Shown: piece by piece, positions 10,079-41,254 of the stretch
Layout of the letters: each line of letters starts with the position of its first letter
How positions within the stretch are numbered: the stretch's first letter is position 1
DNA from: [Flavobacterium] thermophilum
Lineage (GTDB): Bacteria; Bacillota; Bacilli; Bacillales; Anoxybacillaceae
Assembly (NCBI GenBank): GCA_900450595.1
Contig: UGGS01000002.1
Coordinates: 744,001 to 808,000, forward strand
Length of the DNA stretch: 64,000 nt
Reading direction: 5' to 3'
Position numbers and translations under genes: made by a program
The notes under the pieces: model-generated
Seen by the model: only the letters and a program-made list of their open reading frames with translations
Databases searched by the model: none
What the model was told of the DNA's origin: nothing

Positions 10079-10714
10079 TTATAAATATTTTCGATGCACC
10101 GTTTTCCCGTCATACGTAAACAACATCGGCTTTTCTTCGACGACCGTTTCCATATGGACGGGCCGGCCCCAAAGCTGATAAATGTACGGCAGCACTTTCT
10201 CCAAATATTTCAAATCCAATTCAATCCCTTCATACCAATGCTTTAAATACAGTTCCCCATTGCGCATATAATCGCCGTCATTGACCGTGATATACGGGAA
10301 TCCGCCGTTTACCCGCATGCTGACGAGTTGGTCGCGGATATGCTCCCAGTTTTTGTCGACGATTTTATATTCTTTCCCCTGTTTTTGGAACAAATACATA
10401 TCTTCGCGCATGACGAGCTCTTTCGTTAAATAGTTGCGCAAAAACGAAATATCGGACTCAAGCTCACGCACTTCAAAAATTTTCGCCCGCCCCGACCCCG
10501 GCTTGACGCCGTATTTTTTCATTTCCTCGGTCGGATTGTTCCACCGTTCTTCAATGTCTTCAAAAATTTTCAATCCTAAATAGTACGGGTTAATGCCGGT
10601 GCGCGACGGTTGCACGACGTTGGCGTTCAGTTTCGCAAATTCAATCGCCTCATCGCTCGTCAAATCCATCTCGCGCAAAATGCGCTGATGCCAATACGTC
10701 GCCCAGCCTTCGTT
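10079..10714 (-). CDS. spoVR: Stage V sporulation protein R, C-terminal part (gene split by element)
   Basis: The C-terminal 207 codons or so of SpoVR (YcgB family), a sporulation protein involved in spore cortex formation. The shared core encodes NEGWA and is followed by [18 protein letters not shown], the canonical SpoVR continuation. No proper start exists here; the open frame simply runs into the mobile element. The N-terminal half lies at 40433-41254 on the same strand. Joining at the 14-bp core (40455 to 10700) gives a 1422-nt frame of 473 residues, close to the normal SpoVR length of about 468. Confidence 0.93.
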
Positions 10715-10734
10715 TCTCAAAGGAGCTTATTTAA
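10701..10734. other. Left attachment site (att) of the spoVR element
   Basis: The 14-bp core GCCCAGCCTTCGTT is followed inside the element by TCTCAAAGGAGCTTA. The inner arm TTCGTTTCTCAAAGGAGCTT is the mirror image, with one mismatch, of the arm at the right end. Confidence 0.85.
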
Positions 10735-12478
10735 GTATTTGCTTTCTTAAATTATCAACCGATTTACTAAGGTCTTGTTGTATATGTGTTCCTTCTTTCC
10801 AAATAGTCCAAAACTTTAGTGATTTTGAAACTGGTTTGAATTCTGGTTCTTGAATTTTAATCCTAGTAGGAAGTAAACATGAGTCACCTACAACAATTCC
10901 TTCTCCTACCCCCAAAGTTGGTAAAACGTCTTTAATTCCCCCCAAATTCTCAGGTAATAAATTACATACAGCAACCTTATCAGCTTGATTAGCCAACCTC
11001 AACGAAATTACATTATTACACTGACTCATAATAGTTGTATTTAATTCAGAAGGACGCTGGCTTACTATTGTTAGGCTAACACCATATTTTCTTCCTTCTT
11101 TTGCAATTCTCTCGAAATGAGACAAAGCCCTAATCTCAGCAGCGTTTGCTAATTGTTTTGACGGTAAATATAAATGCGCTTCATCACAGACTAAGGCAAT
11201 AGGATACCTTTCGTTTGGAACAGTCCATTGTTGCACTTGAAAAACTAACTTTGCAATTATGCTTACAACAATAGGAAGTATATCAGAAGGGACCTCAGAA
11301 AAATCAATAATTTTAACCCCGCAGTTTTCCGATGATGAAGGCATCATTAACTTAATTATCAATTTATCTAAATAATCTGGATTTAATTTATTTTCATCTA
11401 ATTCAAAAAGGAATCCATACCTTCTATCCTTTAATTTGGATTCAAGTCTAGGAATAAATCTGTCAAATTTTCCATTAAAGGGACCATTCACTGTCCTCCC
11501 ATTCCTTTGTACTTTTTCTTCATTTAACCTTTTTAATTCCTCAATTACATAATCCATTTCAAAAGGTACAGGACTATCTATCGTAAAAGTCTTTAAAACT
11601 TCATTCATTTCATTTTGTTCGAGCATAACTTTTTTTGCATCAATAACAATATTTGAAAATGCCATAGCTTGGTTTGGGGCGTTACTATCACTACGGTCCA
11701 AAATCAATGCTAACATATCTTCATAACCTAATAACCAATAAGGTAAAAACAATATTTGTTCACCCGGATTATTTAGATCACCTGGACCAGCTATTTTATA
11801 TCTAATAATGTTTGGATGACTTTCTAATGGAGCATATTCACCGTGAATATCAAATATTATCATATTCGTATTTGGTAAGGAGGCAGCTTGTTCAACAATT
11901 CTTGCAACTGTATAAGATTTCCCAGAACCCGTTGATCCAACAATCATTGCATGGCGTTGAAAAAAAGCATCTCCATCAATTATTGCCTTTGAATCCTTCG
12001 CTAAAGAATAAGAACCAAGAGTTAATGGACTTTGAGTAGCTGATGTTGTATCAGCAACTAATGATGTAAATACAGAGAGTTTCTCACCATCTAGTAAAAA
12101 ACAATTTGCACCTATTTCGGGAAGTATATCCACCGAACGTGTAAATATAGTACGTGTTCTTGTTCCACCAGGTCCTCTTAATGTTCCAAGTGCAGTTATA
12201 TGTACAACATTATTTACCTCATAATCAATAATCTCTCCTGATTCTAAACCATCGGGCTCAATATACCTTCCTTCAGTCCTTAAGACTCTTTCTATTCGTC
12301 CAATTAATCTTGTGTTAGGATCCGATGTATGTATTAAAACAAAACCATTAACATTTACTGATTTAAGTGTATCATCATCAGAAACTGATACAGCTACATT
12401 ATAGCTATCAACCTTAAACACTACACCAATACTATCCTCAATAGGAATTTCAAATAATGAATTAACTGTGGACTGCAT
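10727..12478 (-). CDS. herA: HerA-like ATPase of a SIR2-HerA antiphage system
   Basis: A 583-residue HerA/FtsK-superfamily ATPase. An N-terminal beta-rich HAS-barrel-like region is followed by a Walker A motif (GSTGSGKS, residues 181-188) and a Walker B motif (CDEAHLYLP, near residue 430). The upstream gene encodes a SIR2 NADase and overlaps it by 17 bases. Such pairs form a supramolecular complex that depletes NAD+ or degrades nucleic acid on infection (SIR2-HerA, also called Nezha). It ends within 10 bp of the left attachment region, with an ATG start after GGACTGC and no strong ribosome binding site, consistent with translational coupling. Confidence 0.88.
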   Translation of the reverse strand: MQSTVNSLFEIPIEDSIGVVFKVDSYNVAVSVSDDDTLKSVNVNGFVLIHTSDPNTRLIGRIERVLRTEGRYIEPDGLESGEIIDYEVNNVVHITALGTLRGPGGTRTRTIFTRSVDILPEIGANCFLLDGEKLSVFTSLVADTTSATQSPLTLGSYSLAKDSKAIIDGDAFFQRHAMIVGSTGSGKSYTVARIVEQAASLPNTNMIIFDIHGEYAPLESHPNIIRYKIAGPGDLNNPGEQILFLPYWLLGYEDMLALILDRSDSNAPNQAMAFSNIVIDAKKVMLEQNEMNEVLKTFTIDSPVPFEMDYVIEELKRLNEEKVQRNGRTVNGPFNGKFDRFIPRLESKLKDRRYGFLFELDENKLNPDYLDKLIIKLMMPSSSENCGVKIIDFSEVPSDILPIVVSIIAKLVFQVQQWTVPNERYPIALVCDEAHLYLPSKQLANAAEIRALSHFERIAKEGRKYGVSLTIVSQRPSELNTTIMSQCNNVISLRLANQADKVAVCNLLPENLGGIKDVLPTLGVGEGIVVGDSCLLPTRIKIQEPEFKPVSKSLKFWTIWKEGTHIQQDLSKSVDNLRKQILK

Positions 12479-13529
12479 ACTCTTCCCCCCAAGCTAAATT
12501 CAAAAGAGAAGCAAATGACCAACGATTTCCTTCAATAAATTCTTCTGAAATGCAATCACTGTAAACTTTACTATTTAATCCGTATTCTTCAATGGCTACA
12601 AAATTCTTTATTTCCCCATTTTCCATTATTTTGTAAAATGAAGATGAAAGCTCTTTCGTAATAATTAGTTTCGGAATATGTATGTTTAACATCACAGATT
12701 GAAAGCTGCCTTGAATATGATCATCATTAAAACCGAAGCCGTAAAAGACCATTCCTTTGGCTTCTTGAATACATCTGTTCATTTCTGCAAAAATTTGATT
12801 ATAAGGATCTCTATGGGTTTCGAGATATTTACCTGTTCCAGGAGTAACTATAACCGGAGTAAGACCAATTTCTTTAAGCAAATCTTTATCAAAATGATTT
12901 ACACCCTGCAATTTTACAAACTCACCATTCCTAGTCTTAAACCAGCTCAACGATCCATGAGGTTTGTAAATCCTTACGTAATTTATTTTTCTTAATTTTC
13001 CGTTTATAAATTTTGTCATTTTTCTCTCATACTCTGCTAAACTTAAGGGCTTGGAAAGTACACCATTATCAAAACCATCCCATATTTGTAAACCAGCATA
13101 CGCTGCTGACCATTCAATTATTTGATCATAATTTGTTGTAATTACATTAATAACATAATTGCTTGTATGTTTATATCTTTCAAAATATCTAATAAAACCA
13201 CAGATATCATCCCCAGATGCAATTTTTAATAATGCTTGTTTTTCATCCCTTGAAATGCAACTCCAAGTAGCTTCAACTATTGAATATGTTAAACATTCCG
13301 TCAAATTGCTTGATTGTAAAGATTCCTCGAGCCCTTTTCCATTTTCTATTTGTTTTAAGATTTCATTCCATTCTCTTTGGTCGTTGTCACTTTCAGGAGT
13401 AATATTTTCTTTTAGGTACTGACCTAATTCTTTCATACCTGAGATCCCTGCTCCTCTTGATGAACCACTCCCTACTACAATTATTGGATTATTATTTATT
13501 ACCTCTTCAATAAAATTACAAACATCCAC
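12462..13529 (-). CDS. SIR2-domain NADase of a SIR2-HerA antiphage system
   Basis: A 355-residue SIR2-like protein. The NAD-binding motif is seen as GSGSSRGAGIS (residues 20-30), the catalytic Asn in TTNYD (about 133) and the catalytic His in KPHGSLSWF (about 191); FYGFGFNDDH near the C-terminus is typical of defence SIR2 proteins. It precedes and overlaps the HerA-like gene. The expected activity is NAD+ hydrolysis on phage sensing, causing growth arrest. Its A+T content is much higher than that of the host genes. Deacetylase activity is unlikely, since no Zn-binding Cys cluster is seen. Confidence 0.88.
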   Translation of the reverse strand: MDVCNFIEEVINNNPIIVVGSGSSRGAGISGMKELGQYLKENITPESDNDQREWNEILKQIENGKGLEESLQSSNLTECLTYSIVEATWSCISRDEKQALLKIASGDDICGFIRYFERYKHTSNYVINVITTNYDQIIEWSAAYAGLQIWDGFDNGVLSKPLSLAEYERKMTKFINGKLRKINYVRIYKPHGSLSWFKTRNGEFVKLQGVNHFDKDLLKEIGLTPVIVTPGTGKYLETHRDPYNQIFAEMNRCIQEAKGMVFYGFGFNDDHIQGSFQSVMLNIHIPKLIITKELSSSFYKIMENGEIKNFVAIEEYGLNSKVYSDCISEEFIEGNRWSFASLLNLAWGEEYAVHS

Positions 13530-14276: not shown

Positions 14277-14419
14277 TCATTTATCCTCTAAATTGAAGCG
14301 TAGTTTACACTGCAAATGTCCTTTTTTATTAACCATAATTTCTTCAAATAAATACAGGAACAACGCTCGCATATCTTCATTGCAGCTAGAGACAGGCGCC
14401 TGAAATTGTTTTAAATGAT
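14277..14419 (-). pseudogene. Large serine recombinase SR-A, C-terminal fragment
   Basis: The last 47 codons or so of SR-A (HLKQFQAPVSSCNEDMRA onward, ending LEDK), cut off from the middle fragment by the IS1380 copy at 14425-16102. The 5-bp target duplication CTTTA flanks that insertion. Removing it restores the frame. Confidence 0.75.
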
Positions 14420-14424
14420 CTTTA

Positions 14425-16102
14425 CCTGAATCCGTGACAAAACATCTTTACAATGGTCGCAAACCGTTGATACGATAAGGGAAAACGACGTTGACGATTC
14501 TTCATCAAGTAGGTGATATGATGAAAGATTTCCCGATTCGGTTTGTATTGACAGATGAAGCGATTACCCCAAGTGCTGGGCTTGCTCTCGTTGGCTACTT
14601 ACTCCATCGAACGAAACTGGATAAACGGGTAAACGCACTTCGGCTTCCAACGGTTCGTCGAGAAGTGCACATTTCCCATAGCGACGTCATTCGCTCGATG
14701 ATCGGCTTGCTTGCCACAGGAAAAACGGATTTCGATCATATCGAAGCGTATCGTCAGGACGATATCTTTTCGGCATCGATGGGGATTCAGCACGTGCCTT
14801 CCTCTCCAACCTTGCGACAACGACTCGATCAGCTCGCTTGTCTTCCGATGACCGAAGCAATCATTTGGGAGGAATCGATGCGTCTGTTGGTTCGACAACA
14901 CGCTACCTTGTCCCCTTGTTGGACCAAAGGGAAGACGACATGGCTCCCACTTGATGTAGACGGCTCCCCATTTGACAACTCCGATACGAAAAAAGAAGGA
15001 GTGAGTCGAACGTATAAAGGATTTGACGGTTTTACGCCGTTGTTTGCGTACGCAGGGAAGGAAGGGTATATCGTTCATGCCGAGCTGCGTCCAGGGAAAC
15101 AACATGTACAAGACAACATGCCTTCGTTTTTAACTACCGCCATCCGTCGAGCTCGTCCGCTGACCTCGTCTCGTCTGCTTGTCCGCATGGATGCAGGAAA
15201 CGATGCGGAAGCGAATGTGCACGTATGTCTAAAGGAAGACGTGGACTTTGTCATCAAGCGAAACTTACGCCGAGAATCGAAAGCGCTTTGGTTCCAGATC
15301 GCTTCGCAAAAGGGCAGACGCATCGATGATGGACAAACCGAAGGAGTACAAACGTATGAGTTATGCCTTCCACAGACCGCAGCAATCGATGGAAACACGT
15401 ATACGTACGTTCAAGTCACCCAAGTGACGGAACGGACGATGGAACGCAATGGACAGCTGATGCTCGTTCCTGATTATGAAGTGGAAAGCTATTGGGTGCG
15501 GCTCAAAGGATACGAGCATGTTCGAATGAGTGATGTGCTCGCATTGTATCATGATCATGCGACATGCGAACAGTTTCATAGCGAACTGAAGAGCGACTTA
15601 GATTTAGAGCGGCTTCCATCTGGGAAGATGAAAACGAATGCGCTCGTGTTGGTCATGGGAGCCTTCGTTTACAATCTTCTTCGTCTGATTGGACAAGATC
15701 TATTAAGCGATCCGAGACATCCGTTGCACCACAAAGTGAAACGCCGCCGCATCAAGACGATTATTCAGACGGTGATCACGATGGCAGGGCGACTCGTCCG
15801 TCGATCACGACAGATCTGGATGAAACTGACGCGAAGGAGTGGCTATAGCGAGCCCCTTCTGAACGTCTATCAGAAATGGAGAGAGGCAAGATAACGAACG
15901 AATGTTCGAGTGCTGATGTCCAACGTCACTCCCTGGGCTTTTTTGTCTATTTTTTTGGTTTGTATACCTAAAAAAAGAGATTTGTTCCATTTTCGGAAAT
16001 AGAGATGATATAGGTCATAAGCATAAAAAGGGTTTTATGGATTATCAATCCATAAAAATTACAACAAAATCAAAGTCGATTTCAATTCATCACGGATTCA
16101 GG
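14425..16102 (+). mobile_element. IS1380-family insertion sequence, copy a
   Basis: A 1678-bp element with terminal inverted repeats beginning CCTGAATCCGTGA at both ends and a duplicated CTTTA at 14420-14424 and 16103-16107. It encodes one intact transposase and interrupts the SR-A recombinase gene. Confidence 0.88.
14518..15894 (+). CDS. IS1380 family transposase
   Basis: A 458-residue DDE transposase. It has the N-terminal block HISHSDVIRSMIGLLATGKT and likely catalytic acids in LPLDVDGSPFD, LVRMDAGND and CEQFHSELKSDLDLERLP. The ATG at 14518 follows GTAGGTGAT; a TTG at 14491 is an alternative start. The frame is intact, unlike the second copy at 23784-25155, so this copy could still be mobile. 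Confidence 0.88.
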   Translation: MMKDFPIRFVLTDEAITPSAGLALVGYLLHRTKLDKRVNALRLPTVRREVHISHSDVIRSMIGLLATGKTDFDHIEAYRQDDIFSASMGIQHVPSSPTLRQRLDQLACLPMTEAIIWEESMRLLVRQHATLSPCWTKGKTTWLPLDVDGSPFDNSDTKKEGVSRTYKGFDGFTPLFAYAGKEGYIVHAELRPGKQHVQDNMPSFLTTAIRRARPLTSSRLLVRMDAGNDAEANVHVCLKEDVDFVIKRNLRRESKALWFQIASQKGRRIDDGQTEGVQTYELCLPQTAAIDGNTYTYVQVTQVTERTMERNGQLMLVPDYEVESYWVRLKGYEHVRMSDVLALYHDHATCEQFHSELKSDLDLERLPSGKMKTNALVLVMGAFVYNLLRLIGQDLLSDPRHPLHHKVKRRRIKTIIQTVITMAGRLVRRSRQIWMKLTRRSGYSEPLLNVYQKWREAR

Positions 16103-16901
16103 CTTTAATTAAATTCCCATTTTTTTGAACCTCTTCTAAGAATTTTATTTTTGCCTCTTTTTCCTCAATCCAACGTTCAATTTGATGAATTTTGTTTAGG
16201 ATTCGATCTTTTGTAATGATCAATATTTTGATGTGAGGTTCCTTTTCTTCCTTCCTTTTAAAAGCTTTTTCAATTTCAATATCGCAAAGCTGGAGTTTTC
16301 GTTTTTCTGTTTGCCATGACACTTTTAAATCCTCAATACTTTTCTTGACGTTGCTAATTTCTGTTTCCACTTTTTCCTGAACAGCCGAGATAAGTTTCTC
16401 CGTATCTATACCTTGATAACTTTTGAACACTCTTAATACCGTTTGATGTGCGTCGTCTGCATCGATTTTATAATTGCATGTTTTGCATAAATACACTTTC
16501 TTTCCATATACTTTTCCCTGGTTACTTGTCGTTCGCTGATCTTTTCCAATTAAATCCCCATTGCAATTTTGGCACTTTAACAAACCTGTTAACAGAAAAG
16601 ATGTTTTAAAATGTTTCGGTGGAATTTTCCTCTCGTTCTTTGTTTTGTATAGATTCCAGCAATACTCCCATTCTTCAATCGTTAAAACCGCCGGAATAAG
16701 TGGACTTTTTTTCATTATCCACTCACTTCTGTCTTTTAACGCATTGTGTTTCTTTTCGTGCTTTCTTCTGATCGCGATATAACCTGCATAAAAGGGATTC
16801 GTAATGATGTTTTTTACACGGTCCTTAGTCCATGCTTTTCCACGATAACTGTTTTCAGGAAGCTGTCTGGCAATAGATGAAAAGCCATGATGATTTTTAT
16901 A
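16103..16901 (-). pseudogene. Large serine recombinase SR-A, middle fragment
   Basis: Encodes the recombinase domain and zinc-ribbon region of SR-A. YKNHHGFSSIARQLPE and GKAWTKDRVKNIITNPFYAG are typical of the domain after the catalytic part; the Cys pairs LLKCQNCNGDL and YLCKTCNYK form the zinc ribbon, followed by a coiled coil. It is bounded by the IS1380 copy on one side and the IS701-like element on the other. With the outer fragments (19996-20544 and 14277-14419) it makes a 1491-nt frame of 496 residues. Confidence 0.82.
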
Positions 16902-16970
16902 TAACTCACTGTAGATGAGCATTTTTCATTACAATAATTTCCATGGTTAGAGAGACAAACAGGGTACCCC

Positions 16971-18230
16971 TTACGCGATACGGAGCTGTTTTTTGATCAC
17001 ATCAATGGGAATATCTTGCTTTGCAGCGTCATAAATGAACTCGACGACGCTGTGGTCTTTCCGCGACCGAAGAAGCTCCAGCCCGGTGGAGAGGTTTTGT
17101 CGGGATTCGGCGATGCTGTACACGCAGGCCAACAGCACCACCGCCCAATACCGTTTCACCGCCCGAATGTGGCGAACGCGGTATCCATCCAGCTTCAGTT
17201 GATCTTTCGCCTGCCGGAAAAAGCACTCGATCGTCCAGCGCTGGGCGTAGTAACGCAAGATGTCTTCGTCCCCGAGTTCCCGGTCGGTGCTCAAGATGCA
17301 ATGAAGATGTTCCGGCGCCATCGGCTGATCCGCCTTCCAAGCCAGCAGCACCACCGCGTCATCGAGGCCATGGATGGCCCCCTCATAGCGATACACGCGA
17401 TAACGCTCCTGCCCCACCGTGACGAGGCGGGTGTCTTTGGACTCGATATAGCGGGTAAACTGCTTGGCTTGGATGGCGATGCCTTTCGGGTAGAGAATCC
17501 GGTTCGTCTTGAGCATCGCGATGACATGGAATCCCTGTTTCAGACAGGCTTCGATGAGCTTCTTAGACGGATACCACGAATCCATGAGCACATACACCGG
17601 CTGAGCCCGCTTCACCTTGAGCGAGGAAAGCATCTCCATCGCCAGGTCGATCTTGCTTTTTCCCGCTTTCTTGTCATACAGGCGGAACGCAAATGGGAAC
17701 GCCTGCGTGAAGGTGTGCACCATCCGCCAAACGAGCGAATGCCCCCAGACCGATTGATGATCTTTATGCGAGTAGTGCCAGTCGCACCCTTGAATGGCGT
17801 GCACAGCCCGTGACGAAGGCTTTGTTTTTTGGCAAATCGTATCATCAATCGAAACAAAAAGGGGTTGATTCTTCCGTTTGGCCAGTCGTTCGACCTGGGA
17901 AAGGATCCACTCTTGAAGCTTCCCAAGCAGCCTTTCCTCGTTCCAAGGGCTTTTCGTGAAAAAGTGACTGAGCGTCGTTCGATGATTCGGGTGAAAGCTC
18001 CAGTAATGAATATCAGTCAATGTTCCCGAGAATCCCTTGGTGGTCAAGGCATCGACAATATGAATGAGATGCTTGATGACCGGTTTGGAAAGCTGCAGCG
18101 TCAACCCCAGCGTGAAGTGTGAGTAAAATATTTGTGGGTGACATTCCGAAATGATCCCCGACGAGGGTTGCGAACTTTTGTTCGCGACGCTCGTCGGGGC
18201 CACCAAGCGAAGCGCGGTAGAAAAAAGCAA
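16971..18230 (-). CDS. IS701/IS4-superfamily transposase
   Basis: A DDE transposase of about 393-419 residues. Catalytic candidates are the Asp pair in VSIDDTICQ, the Asp in VLMDSWYPS, and a Y-(2)-R-(3)-E-(6)-K pattern in YAQRWTIECFFRQAK. The first in-frame ATG (18230) would translate through a strong hairpin at 18156-18199, so the true start is probably just after it, near HPQIFYSHF, perhaps at an unusual codon. The coding region is intact, but its upstream region is cut by ISLre2. Confidence 0.78.
   Translation of the reverse strand: MLFSTALRLVAPTSVANKSSQPSSGIISECHPQIFYSHFTLGLTLQLSKPVIKHLIHIVDALTTKGFSGTLTDIHYWSFHPNHRTTLSHFFTKSPWNEERLLGKLQEWILSQVERLAKRKNQPLFVSIDDTICQKTKPSSRAVHAIQGCDWHYSHKDHQSVWGHSLVWRMVHTFTQAFPFAFRLYDKKAGKSKIDLAMEMLSSLKVKRAQPVYVLMDSWYPSKKLIEACLKQGFHVIAMLKTNRILYPKGIAIQAKQFTRYIESKDTRLVTVGQERYRVYRYEGAIHGLDDAVVLLAWKADQPMAPEHLHCILSTDRELGDEDILRYYAQRWTIECFFRQAKDQLKLDGYRVRHIRAVKRYWAVVLLACVYSIAESRQNLSTGLELLRSRKDHSVVEFIYDAAKQDIPIDVIKKQLRIA
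18156..18199. other. Strong hairpin upstream of the IS701-like transposase
   Basis: CCCCGACGAG plus ten more bases pair with their complement around a TTTT loop (18 of 20 pairs). It lies just before the transposase start, where hairpins in IS4-type elements block read-through translation from outside promoters. Confidence 0.6.
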
Positions 18231-18244
18231 ATGTCATGCAAAAA

Positions 18245-19720: not shown

Positions 19721-19995
19721 GAAAGCGCTTACGATATTAATTCCTGAAAATGGTTCGCTAACTAGTGATTGACAACGCCCGTAGTGAACCGAAAAAATGT
19801 TCTCCACAAAGTCTTGACTGACTCAGCGTGAAGAAAAACTTGTGGATTCCTTGGTGATGTGCTAATCTATTCATGAGACATGAACCTCCTTGTGTGAATG
19901 GGTTTTGAACACATCTATTTTACCCAAGGAGTCCGGTTCATGTCTCCTTTTTTGTTTAGTTGTCAATTTATGTCAGTGAATTTGCTCATCTACAG

Positions 19996-20544
19996 TAACT
20001 CAAACACTTTTTTCACCAATTCTATTTCAGCTTCCACTATATCAAACTTTTCGGTTCCTCCTTCCTTTTTGGAAGTATACTGATACCCAAACGGAGCTCT
20101 GCCACCTGTCCATCGTCCATTTTTCGCCAACGTTTCAATTGCATTTTTTGTATTGATTCGGATTTTATCCAGCTCATATTTGGCTACTCCATCTTTAATC
20201 GCTCTAAAAATGGTGTCGCCAAAATCATATAAACTTTCTGTTTCACTTTCGATGATTGGGATATCTAATATATGCATCGTTGCGCGTATCAGATCATGTT
20301 CTTCAGGTATGCGTGCAATGCGGGAATGTGAGTAGATAATAACGAAGTCAAATTTCTTTTCATAAGCTGCAGCAATCAATCTCTTATATCCTTCACGATC
20401 TTTTTTTCGTGAAGACACTCCCTCGTCCAGAATTTCCTCCACAATTGTACACTGATATTTTTCGGCTAAATCATAGGCGCTACGACGCTGTGTTTCCATT
20501 GTCTGCTTATGCGTGGAATGCCGACCATAAAAAACCCCTTTCAT
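19996..20544 (-). pseudogene. Large serine recombinase SR-A, N-terminal fragment
   Basis: Contains the resolvase catalytic domain: the nucleophile Ser in FYGRHSTHKQTMETQRR, then EEILDEGVSSRKKDREGYKRL, IIYSHSRIARI and GRWTGGRAPFGYQY. It starts at ATG 20544, 17 bp past the SR-B stop, so SR-B and SR-A formed an operon. The IS701-like insertion cuts it after VFEL. Reconstructed SR-A is 496 residues and in frame, which indicates recent inactivation. Confidence 0.82.
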
Positions 20545-20560
20545 GCCTGGTGTCAAAATC

Positions 20561-21797: not shown

Positions 21798-21927
21798 CTC
21801 ATACCTGAATCCGTGATGGTTGGAAATCAACTTTGATTTTGGTGTTAGTTCTATGGATATATGATCCATACATCCCTTTTTTTGATGATTCCCTGCACCA
21901 CTTTCATGTTTGAAAACGAGAATCCTC

Positions 21928-28300: not shown

Positions 28301-28403
28301 CATTCCCGTTAGGAGCTTTTCCGGGGACTTGATCAAAAAAAGCCCTCTTGGTATGATACAGGGGTGTCAACCACATCACTCACCATACCAAGGAGGACTT
28401 CAG

Positions 28404-32002: not shown

Positions 32003-33615
32003 GTAACTATTCAGCCACATCATAAAGTGAGCTGAATATTTTTTGCTTTTCCTGTCCATGATGTGAATATTGATAGACAAGGAGGTGAATCGCATGTTGA
32101 CGGTACAACAAGCTGTATTTACAGTTGAGAGCTTAATCAGCAAAGTCCAACAACAAAAGCAGCTCATTACTCACCAACAACAAGTCATTGAGCAACTGTT
32201 GAAAGAAAACAAACAGCTACGCAAAGAAAATGAACAACTCAAGTATCGCGTTCAAGAGCTGGAAGCACGCACGAAAAAAAACAGCTCCAATAGCCATTTG
32301 CCCCCATCTTCTGACCGTTTTGCCAACACACGTTCTTCCCGTCAACCATCTGGCAACAAGCCAGGCGGACAAGAAGGATATCAAGGAACGACGCTCCGTC
32401 AAGTGGAACATCCACATCATCGTGTCGTCCACCGTGTGCATACGTGTCAAGGATGTGGAGCTTCTTTGCGTGACGTCAAACCGTTCAAAGTCGATATCCG
32501 TCAAGTGTTTGATGTCCCTCCTGCGGCGATCGAGGTGACACAACATGAACGTGAAGTGAAATCGTGTCCACATTGTCGATGCGTGCAACAAGCCGAATTC
32601 CCATCCCATGTCACGAATCATGTGCAATACGGTCCACGGCTCACGGCGCTCGTTGTTTATTTACATCATATCCAATTGATCCCGTACAAGCGTTTAAGTG
32701 ATACAATCGAAGCGTTATATCAACACTCGATTAGTACAGGAACCCTTGCCAATATGGTGAAACGAGGACGCGAAGCGCTGGAATCAAATATGGACATCAT
32801 CGAAGACGCCTTACTTGAATCCAACATCCTGCATGTCGATGAAACGAGTTTGCGCATCAATGGGAAACTCGCATGGGTGCATGTCGCGTGTACATCGAGA
32901 TATACATACTTGGCTCCTCACGCTTCTCGTGGAAAAAAAGCGACCGATGATATCGGGATTCTTCCCCGATATGAAGGGACGATGATGCACGATGCGTTCG
33001 GTACGTATCCGAAATACACACATGCCACCCATGCCCTTTGTCATGCCCACCATTTGCGTGAGTTAAAAGGATTCATCGAACAAGGGCATACGTGGGCGAT
33101 GCGCATGACCACGTTTCTGTTAGCCGCCAAACAAGCCGTCGAAGCCCATCACGGTGCACTTTCCGAAGAAGAAGCGAGACGGTGGGAACGAGTGTATGAT
33201 CGCATCCTAGAAAGAGCACAACACCGATTGGAAGCGAAGACGCCTCTTCCGAAAAAAGCACTCGCTTTTGTTCGACGGCTTCAGAAACGAAAGGAAGAAG
33301 CGTTGCGTTTCTTACGTGAAGTACATGTTCCCTTTGACAACAACCAAGCCGAACGCGATCTTCGCATGGTCAAAGTGAAAGAGAACATTTCGGGTACATT
33401 TCGCGAAGAAACATTCGCCCAGTCTTTTTGTATCACAAGAAGCATCGTTTCCACACTGATGAAACACGAAAAAAACGTGTGGGATTCGTTATGTCTTCTG
33501 TTGACGGGTGACACGCTTGATCATGTTCTTTCTACCACTTAGGGCATTTTCTATTACGGGGATGCCCTATTTGTGTTGCGCTTCTTTACATACTACTATC
33601 GGAGTGAATAGTTAC
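32003..33615 (+). mobile_element. IS66-family insertion sequence
   Basis: A 1613-bp element with 11-bp terminal inverted repeats GTAACTATTCA, starting GTAA as in the IS66 family. Only a tnpC-type gene is present. No 8-bp target duplication was found at its borders, so flanking DNA may have been lost after insertion. Confidence 0.8.
32094..33542 (+). CDS. tnpC: IS66 family transposase (TnpC)
   Basis: A 482-residue IS66 transposase. It has an N-terminal leucine-zipper coiled coil (about residues 15-60), a basic linker (NSSNSHLPPSSD), a zinc finger (CQGCG, CPHC), and a DDE core with Asp in ILHVDETSLRI, Asp in MMHDAFGTY and the C-terminal FDNNQAERDLRMVKVK containing the Glu. AGGAGGTGA sets the ATG at 32094. 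No tnpA/tnpB partners accompany it. Confidence 0.9.
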   Translation: MLTVQQAVFTVESLISKVQQQKQLITHQQQVIEQLLKENKQLRKENEQLKYRVQELEARTKKNSSNSHLPPSSDRFANTRSSRQPSGNKPGGQEGYQGTTLRQVEHPHHRVVHRVHTCQGCGASLRDVKPFKVDIRQVFDVPPAAIEVTQHEREVKSCPHCRCVQQAEFPSHVTNHVQYGPRLTALVVYLHHIQLIPYKRLSDTIEALYQHSISTGTLANMVKRGREALESNMDIIEDALLESNILHVDETSLRINGKLAWVHVACTSRYTYLAPHASRGKKATDDIGILPRYEGTMMHDAFGTYPKYTHATHALCHAHHLRELKGFIEQGHTWAMRMTTFLLAAKQAVEAHHGALSEEEARRWERVYDRILERAQHRLEAKTPLPKKALAFVRRLQKRKEEALRFLREVHVPFDNNQAERDLRMVKVKENISGTFREETFAQSFCITRSIVSTLMKHEKNVWDSLCLLLTGDTLDHVLSTT

Positions 33616-34064: not shown

Positions 34065-35389
34065 GGCTCTTCACCACAAGTTGTACTTGATCATTTAAGG
34101 TAGGTGTGCATAGAGGGTACAAAAAATGCGAATTTTCCTGTATGGTAAAGGTGACCAAACCAAACCATGGAGGGAAATTCGCATGTACTCTCAGTTTATC
34201 AAAGAACTCATCGATTTACCAGATGTTTTGATTCAAAAGGTGCGAAAAGAAGGGGAACGTTGGATTTTCGAACTTTCTCTACCCGAACAATGCCCGTTAT
34301 GTCCTGTCTGCTTGAAGCGCACGATCAAAATGACAGTCAAAAAGAAGCAATGGATGCATGGCTATGCTCAGCGAATCGGAATTTTTTGGATCGAACTTCC
34401 TGTCGAGCGCAGACGTTGTAGCACGTGTGGCGTGACGTTCAGCACGTCGTATCCAGCCATCTCTCCTCGAAGTGTGGCGACGGATGCTTTTCAGCGATGG
34501 GTCGCGCAATCTTGCATCGGAACATCCATTCAGGCGGTGGCTCGTATGCTCAAGCTTCCTTACACGACCGTTGAACGATGGTTTTATACCCATGCCCCTT
34601 CCTTCCTATCGAATGACGTCCAACCAAAGGCGGTTTGTGTCGATGAGTTTGCTTTTCGAAAAGGGCACGACTATGGAGTGGCGATCATGGATGCCGAAAC
34701 GGGAGAAGTGTATACCGTTGAAGCAGGAAAGAACGAGGAAGCCATTGGGCGTGCATTGGCTCATGTATCTCGTTCCGTTCAGTATGTCGTGAGTGACTTG
34801 GCTCCAGCGATGAAAAAAGCGATTCAACGGGTTTGCCCAGAGGCGACACATGTCGTCGACTATTTCCATGTCATTCAGCTGTTTACCGATGCGTTAGAAC
34901 GTTGTCGCAAATATTTGGGCAAAGGAGGCAAGAAACACGGAAATGTTCGTTACGTTTGCCGTTTATTGAGCCAATGCCCAGAGAAATTGACGGAGGAAGA
35001 ACGTCAAATCATACGAGAATGGTGCAATGAAAGCGATTACTTAAAGTCTGTTTACCAATCGCTCCAACATGTTCGCTATGTGTTCAAAAGCAAAGATGAG
35101 CAACAGGCGAAACGTCGTTTGAACGCCTGGGTTCATCGGTATTTGTTTTGTCCTTGTTCTGCTGTTCGCGCCATCGCAAAATCACTCGTCAAACGAACAG
35201 ACGAAATCATATCGTGCATTTTATCCCCTTATTCAAATGGGAAAATGGAGGGAACAAATAACAAGATCAAGCTGATGAAACGTCGGGGATACGGATACAG
35301 AAATATCCAGCGTTTTGCACTGCGGGTTCGGCTAGAAACAGCTAACATACTTTCATGACAGGTGCAAGTACAACTTTTGGTGATGAACC
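34065..35389 (+). mobile_element. ISL3-family insertion sequence
   Basis: A 1325-bp element with 25-bp imperfect terminal repeats (GGCTCTTCACCACAAGTTG at the left) and an 8-bp target duplication CAATCTGT at 34057-34064 and 35390-35397. It interrupts the TOPRIM region of the OLD gene; excision restores CNGKLTQI-AYYEVLK. Confidence 0.88.
34183..35358 (+). CDS. ISL3 family transposase
   Basis: A 391-residue ISL3 transposase. It has an N-terminal zinc finger (CPLCPVC, CSTCG), a helix-turn-helix (SIQAVARMLKLPYTTVERWF), a DDE core with Asp in VCVDEFAF and Asp in VVSDLAPAMK, and the C-terminal family signature YSNGKMEGTNNKIKLMKRR with the Glu. GGAGGG sets the ATG at 34183. Confidence 0.9.
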   Translation: MYSQFIKELIDLPDVLIQKVRKEGERWIFELSLPEQCPLCPVCLKRTIKMTVKKKQWMHGYAQRIGIFWIELPVERRRCSTCGVTFSTSYPAISPRSVATDAFQRWVAQSCIGTSIQAVARMLKLPYTTVERWFYTHAPSFLSNDVQPKAVCVDEFAFRKGHDYGVAIMDAETGEVYTVEAGKNEEAIGRALAHVSRSVQYVVSDLAPAMKKAIQRVCPEATHVVDYFHVIQLFTDALERCRKYLGKGGKKHGNVRYVCRLLSQCPEKLTEEERQIIREWCNESDYLKSVYQSLQHVRYVFKSKDEQQAKRRLNAWVHRYLFCPCSAVRAIAKSLVKRTDEIISCILSPYSNGKMEGTNNKIKLMKRRGYGYRNIQRFALRVRLETANILS

Positions 35390-35474: not shown

Positions 35475-35699
35475 GCATGCGCCCCGATGAGTCATTTTCA
35501 TGCCCGGGTGGAGAGCAAAAATTGCTCATGGAACTTTTCCGTGAAAATACATGCGCCTTCAGCGGTCATTTTCATCCCCGGGTGGAGGGCAAAACGTTGT
35601 CCATGGATCTTTTCCGTGAAAATGCATGCGCCTTGAGCAGTCATTTTCATGCCGGGTGGAGGGCAAAGCGCGCTGCCCATGGATCTTTTCCGGGAAAAT
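35475..35699. repeat. Three tandem 74-76 bp repeats inside the OLD gene
   Basis: Three contiguous units of 76, 75 and 74 bp, each starting (minus strand) ATTTTC.CGGAAAAG, with CCATG, GCCCTCCACCCGG, ATGAAAATGAC and GGCGCATG at fixed places. The total is 225 bp, a multiple of three, but a stop arises in unit 2. The host gene reads through cleanly (KEIF-TEKAD) if the array is removed. Confidence 0.85.
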
Positions 35700-37204
35700 T
35701 TCCTTGAGTTTTTGTTTAATCGCTAAAAAGCTGGCTACTTCACAATCACCTTCTACTAAAACAACTCTTTTTGCGAAAAAAGCCTCCAACGTCGAAGTAT
35801 TGAAGTTTAACAACATCCTCATTCTTTTTCTTTTTTCTGATTTATTATCACCACTATAAATATCATAAGGCACCTGTATTGTTTCTGCAGTTCCATCACT
35901 TCTCTTTTTCAGTAACACAATTCCTTGGTGCCTGTCAGCTAAGTCGATGAAGTTTTCCGAATGTGATGTACAAATTACTTGAGCTAAAGGATGCTTTGAT
36001 ATTTGTACTAATGCATCACGCATTTTTCGCTGTAAATGTGGATGTAAATATATCTCTGGTTCCTCAATCAAAAATAAAAAACTTCTTCTCCATTCCCGAT
36101 TGTCTAACTCCTTATCAAGATCAGAACTTGTTAGTTGTTCTGCCATTAATTCTAATAATGATAAGATAAGCAGTCTTTGAACCCCATTGCCCTGTTCAGA
36201 AGGTTTAGTTAGTAAATTGTTGTACTTTAATGAAATGGACGAGTTTAAGTGGAGTTTCTCCATTACTTCCGGTACTTCAAAATCAACGTGTGCTTCAACC
36301 TCCATTATCCTTTTAAGTTTTTTACTTAACTTATCTTGAAGATTTCGAACCTCTCTATGCTTTGTATCTTCGTTAAAAATTAGCTTCAAGGAGTTTAAAG
36401 CATTTTTAAAATTTTCTATTTCTTCAGTGGAACTAAGATGCTGTTCAAACAAAGCAGACGCTATTAGATTGGCAGCTGACCTATTTTTATTTGCATCAGC
36501 CTCCTCGTTTATTAATTTAACTGCTGGAACATAAATCACTCTTGGCATTATGGATCTTATTTTTGAAGCAAATCCGTTCGGATTAGGAAACCATTTTGGC
36601 TCGCCTTCCGTAATAAGCGTATTATCATTTAAATAAACAAATTCTACAAATTCTTCTTTTTTATTTTTTGGAATAGTACCATTGTTTAATTTTTTATCCT
36701 CACAAAATTTTGTATAAAGTTGTTTTAGGCTAGGCGATACATTTTCAAATGCACTCCTATTCCATGTTTCTTCTTCATTTAACTCTGTAATGTGTCTGTT
36801 AGGAATAAACACTTCAAAAGGAACATCTGTATCCCTTAAATCAGGACCACTCCATATTCTCCTAATAATTAATTCATCATTATAAATATACGGCTTTATG
36901 TAAGGATGATTTTTATCTAAATCGTTTAATCCATTAAAAGTAATTTTCACTTCCATAAATTCATCTTCATTTGTCGGTTCTTTTTTAAAAGGAAATAAAT
37001 CAATTGAAGGAGTGCTTGGTAAATCTGTTTCTGGAAGAAATAACCTAAGGGCTTCCAAAATAGATGATTTTCCTATGTTGTTTTCACCTATTACAGTTAC
37101 AAAATCTGAGGATCCATTTTCATCGACTTCCGGTACTTTAATAATGCATTTTTTTTGATACCAATGTTTTTAAAATTTCTTATTACTATTTCCTTAATAC
37201 GCAT
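35700..37204 (-). pseudogene. OLD-family ATP-dependent nuclease, ATPase part
   Basis: An ABC/SMC-type ATPase of the OLD (overcoming lysogenization defect) family. Visible motifs are the start MRIKEIVIRNFKNIG, Walker A GENNIGKSS, Walker B LIEEPEIYLHPHLQ with the following signature-region helices, and the start of the TOPRIM domain (VVLVEGDCEVASF). It is broken three times: a one-base frameshift at an eight-A run near 37154, the 75-bp repeat array and the ISL3 insertion. Intact OLD proteins act in phage exclusion. No UvrD-like partner is adjacent, so a Gabija pair is not supported. Confidence 0.78.
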
Positions 37205-37334: not shown

Positions 37335-37347
37335 ATTAAAATCCCAT

Positions 37348-38190
37348 TTAATTGATAAGATCGCTAAAATTTAGGTCATTGTTATAGGAGTCCGGATCGA
37401 ACGTAAATTTTAATATCAACTCCCCTTGAGACATTCTTTTCAATCTTCTTTCAATATCCAAATCCCATATATTTTCTAATGTTCCCCTGTAATCTAAAGC
37501 TTGTTGCAACATCTCCCATTGATCTTCTCTTCCTAAATCGTTAAAGTAATCCCTTTTTAGTAACCACTTTATTTTTTGCAACTTATCTGTCGTTAATCGG
37601 GCAGGGTGCCTTTTTGGTAATACTGCTCGCTGATATAACTTGTGTTTAAGCATTGAATGAATTGGCAATTTGCGAATTTTTTCTATGTTTATCAAACTTC
37701 CTTCATTTTCACGGGCTCTTTTGATTATGTCAAAAGGAATATCAGGATGAACAAAATAATTTTCAATCTCAGCTTGAGTAACTCCCAGCTTTCGGGCTAT
37801 CGTGGCAACCTTTACTCCGCTATTAACCATTTGATCAATCAACATATGTTTGTCTAACCACTTTGTTGTTTGATGATGGAACATCCTCCTTAGCAACTTA
37901 ATTCGTTGTTCTGTTTCATTCGAATATCGCTGAATAACGCAAAATATTCTTGTGCACCTTTTATGCTTTTCATTCATTTTTTTATATGCTAAGTATTCTG
38001 GAAACCCCGCGACTAACCAATATTTATCTTCTGTTCTATCCTTTTCAACAATAACATGGCTGCTTAACTGATCCCCTCCCTCTAATATTTTGACCATTTT
38101 CTCTACTGCTCTTTTTGAAACATTTTCAACGTATATGGGGACAATTTTATCTAATTCAATGGATTCCATCCAAATCCCATCAAGCTTCAT
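37348..38190 (-). CDS. ParB-like domain protein with HTH
   Basis: A 280-residue protein. The N-terminal 100 residues resemble a ParB/Srx fold (IELDKIVPIYVE ... VIVEKDRTEDKYWLVAGFPEYLAYK). A KorB-type helix-turn-helix follows (SGVKVATIARKLGVTQAEIENYF, about 125-150). GGGGAGGGG sets the ATG at 38190. No ParA is nearby, so plasmid-type partition is not supported; a regulator or defence component with the adjacent AlbA_2 gene is possible. The gene is A+T-rich. Confidence 0.7.
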   Translation of the reverse strand: MKLDGIWMESIELDKIVPIYVENVSKRAVEKMVKILEGGDQLSSHVIVEKDRTEDKYWLVAGFPEYLAYKKMNEKHKRCTRIFCVIQRYSNETEQRIKLLRRMFHHQTTKWLDKHMLIDQMVNSGVKVATIARKLGVTQAEIENYFVHPDIPFDIIKRARENEGSLINIEKIRKLPIHSMLKHKLYQRAVLPKRHPARLTTDKLQKIKWLLKRDYFNDLGREDQWEMLQQALDYRGTLENIWDLDIERRLKRMSQGELILKFTFDPDSYNNDLNFSDLIN

Positions 38191-38278: not shown

Positions 38279-40150
38279 CTAATGCTGGTTTGTAAAAAGA
38301 GATCGTGTCATATATGCTTGTTTCGGATGGTTTATTTGCTCTGGATATAGCGGTTCTAATTTCCCTTCCTTAAGCAATCGTGAAATGTACTTTTTGCGAA
38401 GAGGATCCATCTGCCTATTCAGTAATTGACTTAATTCTTTGAGCGTTAACGGCTTAATTGCACAAAGATTTAAAATGATCTCATCCATTTCGGAAGGATT
38501 TAATCTCTTTTTCTTCCTTGCTAATTCAGAAATATCCAATAGCACTTTTTCATGATCTTTTGTTTGTTCGTTTTCGTTAGGTCCGGAGTTAGCAGCGTTA
38601 GGTCCGGAGTTATTAACATTAGGTCCGGAGCTTATCCGATTATATCTGGAGTTCCCTATAGACTTTTGATGAAACATTTCCGTTAGCGTATATTTTGTAC
38701 CTCTTCCTTGTCCATTTGGTTCTAAATATCCTTTTTCCACCAGTCCGGATAATAATTTGCTTATTTCATCACTCTTTTTATCTGTCAGGCTTTGCAATCT
38801 CGTATTGGTCACATAATTTTCTTGATGTGCCGTCACTAAAATTAATACTTCATCATTGGTTAAAAACTTATAATGTTTCCCAAGAACTGCTTTTAGAAAA
38901 TCGACGCTTTCCTGCGGTAATAATGAAGTTGTTCGCAACGTAAGAATCGTGCGATCCGGCTGAAATTCTTCAATTAATTCTGGGGCAGTCCAATGTTGTT
39001 CTTTCCACGCCAAATGAATATTCTCAATCCCCGACCCTGCCCGTTCACCAAGTCCGATTAACATAAACATTTTAAAAATCGTTGGATTTCTCGGATCACT
39101 TATTCCACCTTTCAGTGCTTGTTGCAAAGGAATCCGAAGAACACCCGGGTTGGAAAATCGAAATAACATCTTTTCCTTTTCGATAACAATTCCGCGTCGC
39201 CCGTAGTAATCGGCATGAGCCAACGTATTGACTAAAGCCTCACGAAGAGCAGCGTGCACCCTTGTATCATCCTTGCGAAAAAGCCCCTCCATTTGAAAAG
39301 GAATGTTTAAATCATCCGTTAGTCTGCGGATCACTTTAAAATAAAAATCATACAAATTCCCCGACCAAGTGCCGTCGGAAGAAATAATCCGATCTGTCCA
39401 TCTCTCCCCCGGCACATCCGAACTCTTTTCCCGATATTCTAAGAAATACTGCGGTAAATACTCTGTAATGCTGCGCTCTTCCCCAAACATGAGCAACCCG
39501 GCTAATGTTAGCCCTTCCTCGTTGGTTTCGCGTAGCCTTCCCAAAGCTCCAATTTTATATAAAAAGTCCTTCAGTTCTAAACCATTCCAAGGATGATCTG
39601 GTTTCAAAGAAGAAAAGCGATTTCGATAACTTCTCACCGATTCCATATTCAAATCATTTAAACCGTAATTGGGAAGAACTTTGCTGTCTTGAGGAATTGG
39701 AGATTGATCCGCTATCATTCGCTGTACTTCTTCTTTTGTACATTTATAGTCTCCTTCATAATTGCGGCGATATGTACCTGTAAAAGGATTATGACCAATA
39801 TAAATTGGCTTGTCCTCACGTGAAGCTCTTGGAACATAAATTTTCACGATTTCTTTTCCGTCAACTTCAACAATTTCTACATTTCGATCCACTAAGATAT
39901 TTTTACTAATCCTTTGTGGATTATTAATTCCATCCCAAAAGTCTTTGACTAACTTTTTTGCATCAACATCGACTGGGAAAAACTCTTGTCCTTTTTGCTC
40001 GACCCCAAGCAAAATAATACCGCCATTTGTATTCGCAAAAGCAGAATACGTTTCCCAAACATCTTTCGGTAACCCGCCTTTGGCTGCTTTACATTCCAAT
40101 TCGGCATTTTCTCCATCGTCTATAATACGCAACAAATCCTTCGCATCCAT
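38279..40150 (-). CDS. AlbA_2 (Schlafen-like) domain ATP-binding protein
   Basis: A 623-residue protein of the RecG-related/AlbA_2 type. The N-terminal AlbA_2 domain is shown by ENAELECKAAKGGLPKDVW and SAFANTNGGIILLGVE; a GHKL-like ATPase region follows (ALREALVNTLAHADYYGRRG, FSNPGVLR, GLGERAGSGIENI). The C-terminal half has winged-helix regions and a linker with three 7-residue repeats (SGPNxxN). Such proteins are often regulators or defence-associated factors in mobile elements. It is the last intact gene before the right attachment site. Confidence 0.78.
   Translation of the reverse strand: MDAKDLLRIIDDGENAELECKAAKGGLPKDVWETYSAFANTNGGIILLGVEQKGQEFFPVDVDAKKLVKDFWDGINNPQRISKNILVDRNVEIVEVDGKEIVKIYVPRASREDKPIYIGHNPFTGTYRRNYEGDYKCTKEEVQRMIADQSPIPQDSKVLPNYGLNDLNMESVRSYRNRFSSLKPDHPWNGLELKDFLYKIGALGRLRETNEEGLTLAGLLMFGEERSITEYLPQYFLEYREKSSDVPGERWTDRIISSDGTWSGNLYDFYFKVIRRLTDDLNIPFQMEGLFRKDDTRVHAALREALVNTLAHADYYGRRGIVIEKEKMLFRFSNPGVLRIPLQQALKGGISDPRNPTIFKMFMLIGLGERAGSGIENIHLAWKEQHWTAPELIEEFQPDRTILTLRTTSLLPQESVDFLKAVLGKHYKFLTNDEVLILVTAHQENYVTNTRLQSLTDKKSDEISKLLSGLVEKGYLEPNGQGRGTKYTLTEMFHQKSIGNSRYNRISSGPNVNNSGPNAANSGPNENEQTKDHEKVLLDISELARKKKRLNPSEMDEIILNLCAIKPLTLKELSQLLNRQMDPLRKKYISRLLKEGKLEPLYPEQINHPKQAYMTRSLFTNQH
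38577..38639 (-). repeat. Three 21-bp in-frame repeats in the AlbA_2 gene
   Basis: TTAGGTCCGGAG recurs every 21 bp, encoding three SGPN-containing heptads in a linker between the ATPase and the C-terminal winged helix. Copy number could vary among strains. Confidence 0.75.
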
Positions 40151-40389: not shown

Positions 40390-40424
40390 AAAAAAATCAC
40401 TTTCGTATACAAGTGATTTCTCAT
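40390..40424. terminator. Hairpin near the right end of the element
   Basis: AAATCACTT pairs with AAGTGATTT with A- and T-rich flanks. It is just inside the right attachment site, so it would end transcription of the truncated spoVR message on the minus strand. The preceding 240 bp (40151-40390) are A+T-rich and hold nothing else I can see. Confidence 0.6.
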
Positions 40425-40432
40425 TTACATAT

Positions 40433-41254
40433 TTAAGCTCCTTTGCGAAACGAAGCCCAGCCTTCGTTCATGATTTTTGTCTCTAGCTGCGGCCAAAAAT
40501 AGAGCATTTCCTCGCGCATCATCGTCAAAATGTCGCGCTGCCAGTCCTCCAGTTCACGGCTGTATTCTTCGATGAACAATAGCACATCTTTTTCCGGTTG
40601 CGGCGGAAACTTGCGCCGTTTTTTTCGCGGCGGCGTTTTCAGTTTGTTTCGCTCGTCAAGCGACCATAAATCGTCGTACGGCGTCGATGTTTTCGGAGGC
40701 TCCTCCTCTTCGTACACTTCCGTATCTTCCCACGTCCATGACAGCTTTGGCCGCAACAGCGACGGATCGATATGCTCCTGAATGGCTAAGACGGCATCCA
40801 GAAACTTTTCCACTTCCCATTTTCCGTATTGGTGCTCGTAATGTTTGATCCGCTCTGCTGTCGCCGCCATGCTCTCGACCATATCGCGCTTCGTGTTGCT
40901 GAAGCGGACGTTGTTTTTGAAAAAGTCGCTGTGGGCCAACACATGGGCGACAATTAGCTTATTTTGGATCAGTGTATTCGTATCGAGCAAAAATGCATAA
41001 CAAGGATCCGAGTTAATGACAAGTTCGTAAATTTTGCTTAATCCTAAGTCATAATGGAGCTTCATTTTGTAAAACTGTTTCCCGAAACTCCAGTGGGAAA
41101 ACCGCGTCGGCATCCCATAAGCGCCAAATGTATAAATAATGTCAGCCGGGCAAATCTCATAGCGCATCGGGTAAAAGTCCAACCCAAATCCTTCTGCGAT
41201 TTCTGTAATCTCCGCAATCGCTCGTTCCAGCTCTTTCAGCTCGTCCTGCCGCAT
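40433..41254 (-). CDS. spoVR: Stage V sporulation protein R, N-terminal part (gene split by element)
   Basis: First 273 codons of the split gene; the last seven (SFRKGA and stop) come from the element. It starts [20 protein letters not shown] behind AGGGGGGAGATGG, and contains the conserved [21 protein letters not shown] and [12 protein letters not shown] regions. The truncated product lacks the C-terminal half. A sigma-E-type promoter precedes it, so the fragment should be transcribed in the mother cell. Excision joins MNEGWA to TYWHQRI in frame. Confidence 0.93.
40435..40468. other. Right attachment site (att) of the spoVR element
   Basis: AAGCTCCTTTGCGAAACGAA lies inside the element, followed by the core GCCCAGCCTTCGTT. 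The inner arm mirrors the left end with 19 of 20 matches. Confidence 0.85.

Follow-up and report, generated by a model that had tools for sequence, protein, structure and literature searches.

The spoVR gene of [Flavobacterium] thermophilum, a heat-loving Bacillus relative, is split by a 29,754 bp island within the 64,000 bp stretch analyzed here (assembly GCA_900450595.1, contig UGGS01000002.1, positions 744,001 to 808,000), which we call the window and in whose own coordinates positions are given. The reading we favor, at a probability of roughly 0.8, is that of a non-viral, gin-like integrative island put into the Trp267 codon of spoVR by its own GirC-type recombinase, and removed in the mother cell so that spoVR is rebuilt. 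The two minus-strand halves of the gene share a 14 bp core, GCCCAGCCTTCGTT, of which the window holds two exact copies and no others, at 10701 and 40455 (29,754 bp start to start), embedded in a 19 bp direct repeat (89%). Joining minus-strand 41254-40455 to 10700-10079 gives 1422 nt, or 473 codons plus a stop; the first-pass annotation of this DNA had located the split and the repeat correctly, and the in-frame, 473-residue join that it proposed holds. No further spoVR match is found in the window genome at E<=0.001. The features of the split are as follows.

10079..10714, minus strand: spoVR 3' part (C-half) with core, without internal stop
40455..41254, minus strand: spoVR 5' part (N-half, codons 1-267), open up to the core
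10701..10714, minus strand: core repeat at the C-half junction, exact repeat of the 14 bp core
40455..40468, minus strand: core repeat at the N-half junction, exact repeat of the 14 bp core
10708..10737, no strand assigned: P-arm-like island end, with like blocks at other elements' ends
40426..40455, no strand assigned: P-arm-like end of the island, repeating the opposite end in inverted form, with like blocks at other elements' ends

Relatives with an empty site (genomes, contigs and loci are denoted by G, C and L numbers) define the uninterrupted state precisely. The N-half is present in all 14 Geobacillus genomes, the window genome included; five of these (window genome, G002, G003, G010, G013) carry the island at the site, with the same island end in each, and nine read through it as ...GAAGGCTGGGCGACGTATTGG..., or with GGA in place of GGC. 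The join is not a product of chance, because these nine genomes read straight across and match the joined gene. Their spoVR DNA is 87-92% identical to the N-half, and their full SpoVR proteins are 97-100% identical to the joined 473-residue protein, which supports the earlier proposal that the split marks an intervening element. The C-half of G013 was not found in its assembly of about 160 contigs.

The island ends form a 30 bp inverted repeat (10708-10737 and 40426-40455, 87%), whose coding-strand sequence around the core is AACGAAG-GCTGGG-CTTCGTT and whose outer blocks are AAGCTCCTTT and AAAGGAGCTT; similar inner and outer blocks occur at island ends from other families. The attP of a serine integrase contains two recognition blocks, an expectation that the inner and outer blocks fit, and the inverted island ends resemble each other as the two arms of such an attP would. 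The symmetry centre of the inverted repeat is the TG of the Trp267 codon, where crossover is predicted to occur (plus-strand CA, 10704-10705 and 40458-40459). A cut at this dinucleotide is supported by N-side changes to the right of TG in two elements (TGA in G010, TGTCC in G347), since the crossover must fall at TG or to its left for them to be removed.

The same interruption recurs across the order. In an even draw of 397 genomes, with at most four first-look candidates scored per genome, spoVR is matched in 380 and GirC (E<=1e-60) in 69, and 12 genomes outside Geobacillus match GirC at 54-68% identity. A closer look at 17 genomes, plus 32 others with two or more spoVR matches, reveals spoVR split at codon 267 by a GirC-type island in at least 13 of the 397 genomes, from seven families (window genome, G002, G013, G068, G109, G187, G188, G193, G211, G216, G265, G342, G347). 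This count is a lower bound; G003 and G010, added from the genus search, bring the set to 15 spoVR elements. In all 15 the N-half remains open up to the core, and the C-half is open in the 14 where it is seen (it is missing from the G013 assembly). Among the 12 close GirC genomes outside Geobacillus, the gene lies within a split spoVR in ten and elsewhere in two (G135, G059), and in a recombinase tree one branch separates all 15 spoVR rows from these two (support 97/78). The root of this tree is uncertain because the outgroups, four of eight loci that passed a length and motif filter, with the G365 integrase left out, are long branches. Where both ends lie on one contig, island size ranges from ~10 kb (G187, G193) to ~54 kb (G342, a composite); the elements of G068 and G347 reach the ends of their contigs and may be incomplete. 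Besides girC, the 14 other spoVR elements hold two further serine recombinases (11 elements), one (G109, G216) or none found (G193), and recJ is matched in five (G010, G003, G002, G013, G265). One candidate split, G142, was rejected since its two pieces abut as by a frameshift, and G264 (one open frame), G349 and G262 (fragments, contig end) were not counted.

Pfam identifies one whole large serine recombinase on the plus strand of the window island and pieces of two more on the opposite strand. Set against G003, G002 and G013, the island shows four insertion sequence (IS) blocks, and once these are removed the gene order is girB, girA, an XRE regulator, a candidate recombination directionality factor (RDF), girC, a 133 aa gene and recJ. 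In G003 girA (503 aa) and girB (532 aa) are whole; both are IS-broken in the window. The girC-like protein is intact and 96-98% identical in four relatives, and its best-matching solved structure over most of its length (residues 20-470, 1.8e-26) is YokA of SPbeta, which we take to be the SprA of spsM rebuilding. Adjacent to girC, the 133 aa gene (28126-28300 and 30071-30301) is broken by an IS110-type insertion in the window and whole in G003. An inverted repeat at 15990-16102 and 21804-21916, considered as the ends of an invertible segment, was rejected because the G003 comparison places both copies inside IS insertions. The recombination genes, their putative promoters and the IS blocks are:

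14277..14421, minus strand: girB-like gene, 3' end piece, mapped on the G003 open reading frame (ORF) at 3417-5015
14422..16102, no strand assigned: IS with DDE_Tnp_1_4 transposase, 1681 bp, absent in G002, G003 and G013
16103..16908, minus strand: girB-like gene, middle piece, by Pfam and comparison
16909..19995, no strand assigned: IS of 3087 bp with DDE_Tnp_1 and UPF0236 ORFs, absent in G002, G003 and G013
19996..20652, minus strand: girB-like gene, 5' piece, by Pfam and comparison with G003
20561..21803, minus strand: girA-like gene, 3' piece, by Pfam and comparison with G003
21804..25248, no strand assigned: IS of 3445 bp with an IS110-type ORF and DDE_Tnp_1_4 ORFs, read as nested, absent in G002, G003 and G013
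25249..25523, minus strand: girA-like gene, 5' piece, by comparison with G003
25849..26196, plus strand: XRE-type regulator, with a related ORF in 9 other groups
26284..26526, minus strand: candidate RDF, 80 aa, divergent to girC, by place, size and constancy
26550..26576, minus strand: GGGTTGTCC-N13-GCATA box upstream of the RDF candidate, from interval alignment
26593..26621, plus strand: sigma-E-like TCATTGT-N14-CATATAT upstream of girC, from interval alignment and pattern count
26657..28111, plus strand: intact girC-like large serine recombinase of 484 aa, counted from this ATG, with Pfam Resolvase, Recombinase and Zn_ribbon
28301..30070, no strand assigned: IS110-type insertion, 1770 bp, breaking the gene between girC and recJ, absent in G010, G002, G003 and G013

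An ORF of 71-97 aa that starts within ~150 bp of girC on the opposite strand accompanies all 15 spoVR elements as well as G135 and G059, and is kept beside girC even in G193, an element for which the search turned up no second serine recombinase. These ORFs are mostly linked by BLAST, the G347 copy being assigned by position. A hidden Markov model built from 12 rows detected the G059 copy, which is outside that set, at 4.8e-14; its remaining matches are set members or Geobacillus near-copies. Among 5.8 billion proteins the candidate has only five close relatives (78-100%), none with a Pfam domain; PHROGs yielded no relative, and a PDB sequence search returned chance-level matches only, mostly eukaryotic kinases (best E 0.45). 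From its place, size and constancy we infer that the small ORF probably encodes the RDF.

Alignment of the interval between girC and the small ORF (17 rows) reveals a CATATA-type block facing girC, with TCAT ~14 nt upstream, and GGGTTGTCC-N13-GCATA facing the small ORF. The strict form of the girC pattern, chosen post hoc, occurs in 7 of 13 independent intervals versus 25 of 6520 element stretches (true sites included), and in a mean of 0.04 of 13 intervals after shuffling that preserved base composition only. The exact ORF box is present in 9/17 rows (five with Geobacillus counted once) and nowhere else in the sequence set; TTGTCC, read in reverse as GGACAA, is presumably the SpoIIID core. 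Upstream of the spoVR N-half, 8/15 elements contain CATACATT, which we take to be a sigma-E -10 element. Among described systems, transcription of the skin recombinase gene spoIVCA is reported to be almost wholly SpoIIID-dependent (PMC517825), and the C. difficile skin RDF is given as a 72 aa protein controlled by sigma-E and SpoIIID (PMC5025042).

Selection on the halves and on the recombinase was estimated as the ratio of non-synonymous to synonymous divergence (dN/dS, Nei-Gojobori) between the window genome and the other Geobacillus carriers. The ratio is 0.01-0.02 for the N-half (four other carriers), 0.01 for the C-half (three), 0.05-0.12 for the intact girC-like gene and 0.10-0.21 for the recJ-like gene; at its length the RDF candidate gives no firm estimate. 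Synonymous divergence itself is 0.13-0.24 for girC and 0.02-0.04 for the Schlafen gene at the island end, versus 0.35-0.70 for the spoVR halves. Because island dS is below spoVR dS, transfer of the island between species probably took place after their split.

Taken together, the split gene, attP-like arms, precise empty site, intact and constrained girC, two IS-broken recombinases and conserved small ORF can be read directly from the sequences compared. The intervening-element interpretation is well supported by these comparisons, and a mechanism would extend it as follows. A GirC-type large serine recombinase carried by the island would place it within spoVR at the Trp267 codon. During sporulation sigma-E, possibly aided by SpoIIID, would turn on girC and the small ORF in the mother cell, the product of the latter serving as directionality factor, and GirC would recombine attL with attR at the TG dinucleotide. 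The island would exit as a circle, spoVR would be rebuilt in the doomed mother cell, and the forespore would hand the island on. If girA and girB are unneeded, as in gin, IS loss of both would be tolerated.

The closest published parallel is gin, described as a 28.6 kb non-viral element with girA-girB, girC and recJ in gerE of B. cereus ATCC10987, whose excision requires just girC and a 42 aa girX, with girAB dispensable and unexpressed in sporulation (PMC5595907). By that description the window island shares with gin its non-viral nature, three serine recombinases (a pair and one apart), a recJ homologue and varied cargo, as well as its location in a mother-cell sporulation gene and a short shared core with inverted arms (PMC5595907). 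The two differ in the interrupted gene (gerE versus spoVR), in the length of GirX (42 aa) versus the RDF candidates (71-97 aa), and in the girAB-type pair, which is IS-broken in the window. A split gerE was sought in 36 genomes of the genus of G386, and all 36 have a full-length gerE.

Interruption of spoVR is itself already known: vrin, which the first-pass annotation named as an earlier case, is in print as an intervening element in spoVR of G. thermoglucosidasius C56-YS93, listed among developmentally excised elements (PMC4191935), and another account places a spoVR case in B. weihenstephanensis instead (PMC6957869). Compared by description only, vrin differs from the window island in being described with phage-related genes. 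The GirC-type spoVR family and the orphan C-half arrays described below were not found in print among open-licence PMC papers, a set outside which most subscription journals lie. The likeness to skin in sigK and SPbeta in spsM drawn at first pass stands insofar as these too are spore-gene intervening elements in which a serine recombinase acts and a gene is rebuilt (PMC4191935, PMC5025042), and SPbeta and the C. difficile skin are described as having an RDF under mother-cell control (PMC4191935, PMC5025042). It does not extend to their phage character: skin and SPbeta are prophages or remnants, whereas a PHROGs scan of nine window ORFs, chosen apart from the transposases and the girA/girB pieces, detects no phage structural protein, the single terminase-like match being the HerA ATPase, and the island is gin-like instead. 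A 40 kb prophage in G365 (L148-L150) likewise interrupts spoVR next to its own serine integrase; it differs in splitting the gene at ~residue 60, in carrying portal, terminase and tape-measure genes, and in an integrase with 30% identity to GirC.

The conclusion that the island is excised in the mother cell must be tempered by several considerations. The excised junction, the circle and the expression of these genes are predictions from sequence. The likeness to gin is one of plan, taken from its published description. No relative of the candidate among known RDFs emerged from PHROGs, PDB or the 5.8-billion-protein search. The strict girC pattern fails in 6/13 intervals, the promoter patterns were selected after inspection, and the sigma-E and SpoIIID consensus letters are those we assume. 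Since spoVR dS exceeds element dS (0.35-0.70 versus 0.02-0.24), the low dN/dS of the halves partly reflects time before insertion. Finally, the G216 GirC island contains a full internal spoVR, and G033 and G023 have whole genes, so excision is not the sole way to keep spoVR.

A frozen insertion, in which an island that entered site-specifically has lost the ability to leave and the strain lacks SpoVR with halves not yet decayed, is unlikely. It would accommodate the IS load and two dead recombinases, the low element dS, which leaves little time for decay, and the remnants G033 and G023, which hold no recombinase in the stretch examined. However, the window retains girC, the small ORF, both arms and both halves in intact form, the halves are open wherever seen, across all elements and seven families, and the two remnants have the gene whole by another way. 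In these genomes an orphan N-half is followed by a degenerate island end with the Schlafen gene (L064 1878-7705; L065 2124-8465) and by a second N-half joined to a C-half, so that the gene is complete although nothing has been excised. Between the two N-halves identity is 99.4% in G033, where it ends at the crossover TG, and 90.6% in G023.

Alternatively, spoVR could be a mere conserved landing site of a mobile island whose excision is random or stress-driven, comparable to the staphylococcal cassette chromosome (SCC). SCC leaves rlmH intact, whereas spoVR in the window is cut in two and in need of rebuilding. The resemblance to SCC otherwise includes site-specific islands, paired serine recombinases and pile-up at one gene (PMC5595907), and the variable cargo, horizontal spread, and composite and orphan structures suit such an island. 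We nonetheless judge a non-developmental island quite improbable, given mother-cell-promoter-like motifs ahead of girC and the RDF candidate in distant elements (by a post hoc pattern) and GirC relatives outside spoVR near a spore-appendage gene (G059) and DUF7852 genes (G135). Dependence of excision on girA/girB-type recombinases supplied in trans from another copy seems very improbable. Eleven of the 14 other spoVR elements do have two further serine recombinases, and two have one, but both genes are broken in the window, none was seen in G193, and girAB is described as dispensable in gin (PMC5595907). A girC-query search of the window genome, not aimed at girA/girB, returned one further serine recombinase (contig C1, 32% identity).

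Developmental excision of the island, the interpretation preferred above, suggests that programmed mother-cell gene rebuilding is not just a prophage curiosity, as one recombinase family uses one spoVR codon in at least seven families. With girA/girB naturally lost and girC kept, the window makes the roles of these genes testable, and it supplies a candidate RDF for a large recombinase family whose attB is defined and falls within conserved codons. It also reveals a hotspot in which defence and other cargo is hidden in or beside a spore gene.

Further spoVR fragments accompany full copies of the gene elsewhere in the order. Twenty loci of 18 genomes (L153-L172, e.g. L155, L157, L158, L165), drawn from the 32 multi-match genomes, were surveyed, and 16 of the 18 contain orphan C-halves, 21 in total, beginning at ~codon 264 at a GirC P-arm/core junction. 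Of these, 18 are found downstream of a full spoVR in the same orientation, two (G344, contig C2) are upstream of a second full copy, and that of G296 is on a different contig from the full gene. By eye a P-arm-like stretch lies just ahead of nearly all of them; with a weight matrix from 13 GirC elements, 10/21 orphans exceed the 99% shuffle level versus 0/19 intact genes, and the remaining orphans fall below it, by a clear margin for G120 and for one G344 copy. Of 20 orphans set against the full-gene C-half, 14 are open, and six are decayed or truncated (G165, G120, G383, G168, the second of G215, the second of G398). Among open orphans (G398 excluded as misaligned), dN/dS is <=0.03 in 10/13 at dS 0.2-2.6 and 0.07-0.08 in the two G344 C2 copies, and G194 is nearly identical to the full-gene C-half; values for G120, G168, G398 and the second of G215 derive from misaligned slices and are meaningless. 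The low ratios suggest that most orphans belonged to a functional gene until a short time ago. Within genus g30, similarity mixes full with orphan C-halves from different genomes.

In the loci surveyed, the interval from full gene to orphan contains no GirC-like match (E<=1e-6); G168 has a GirC-like fragment upstream. Ten ORFs scanned from these intervals include McrB-like, PTS, NUDIX and hydrolase, weakly ParE-like and Ig-repeat proteins. G342 combines both states, in the order N-half, GirC island, P arm-C-half, 8 kb, P arm-C-half. We tentatively suggest, at somewhat less than even odds, that spore-formers use the Trp267 codon of spoVR as a site-specific platform for cassettes: alongside islands that disrupt the gene and then leave, as proposed for the window, cargo cassettes would enter at this codon with their own C-half, keeping the gene whole and displacing the old C-half behind a P arm, and repeated rounds would build arrays of interchangeable C-halves, against any of which a resident GirC island could excise, gaining or leaving cargo. 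Homologous recombination in the 630 bp C-half is an equally open route for some cassette steps.

The remaining genes of the window island are predominantly cargo and transposases:

10727..12478, minus strand: HerA ATPase of a SIR2-HerA pair, PADLOC HerA 4.6e-216
12462..13529, minus strand: SIR2-like partner of HerA, PADLOC SIR2 6.7e-138
30246..31943, plus strand: recJ-like gene with DHH, RecJ_OB and DHHA1, matched in G010, G003, G002, G013 and G265
32070..33542, plus strand: IS66 transposase, by Pfam
34126..35358, plus strand: ISL3 transposase, by Pfam
35559..37058, minus strand: OLD-like ATPase with TOPRIM start, by Pfam and PADLOC
37348..38190, minus strand: ParB-like protein, weak (phrog_1033, 3.3e-9)
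38279..40150, minus strand: Schlafen AlbA_2 / RecG-C-like protein at the island end, by Pfam, also in remnants G033 and G023

The defence cargo noted at first pass is borne out in the window by SIR2-HerA and the OLD-like ATPase, but it is not constant, as one G003 island end holds, by eye, arsenic-type methyltransferase, acetyltransferase and permease genes. The cargo of the relatives was scanned with 100 of 221 ORFs, hand-picked by length (mostly 230 aa or more). Among the 25 of 417 PADLOC families listed are GajA (5e-293), Old, AriA, PtuA, DrmD and candidate systems, and among the 25 of 110 Pfam families listed are SMODS and restriction-type helicases, also cation efflux and methyltransferases; the PHROGs result likewise consists of the 25 listed of 99 families from the 100 ORFs. 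Defence cargo is common in these islands, not universal.

The two GirC relatives outside spoVR (L147 7015-9942; L146 5243-9243) have the same divergent small ORF. They neighbor an Enas endospore-appendage gene in G059 and a pair of DUF7852 genes in G135, which may point to a further developmental rearrangement affecting spore-surface genes. In a different genus, G017 (L066 5509-8936) carries a Geobacillus-like fragment with a spoVR C-half, a P arm and the neighboring cydA-like start, and a copy of an IS lies just past the P arm.

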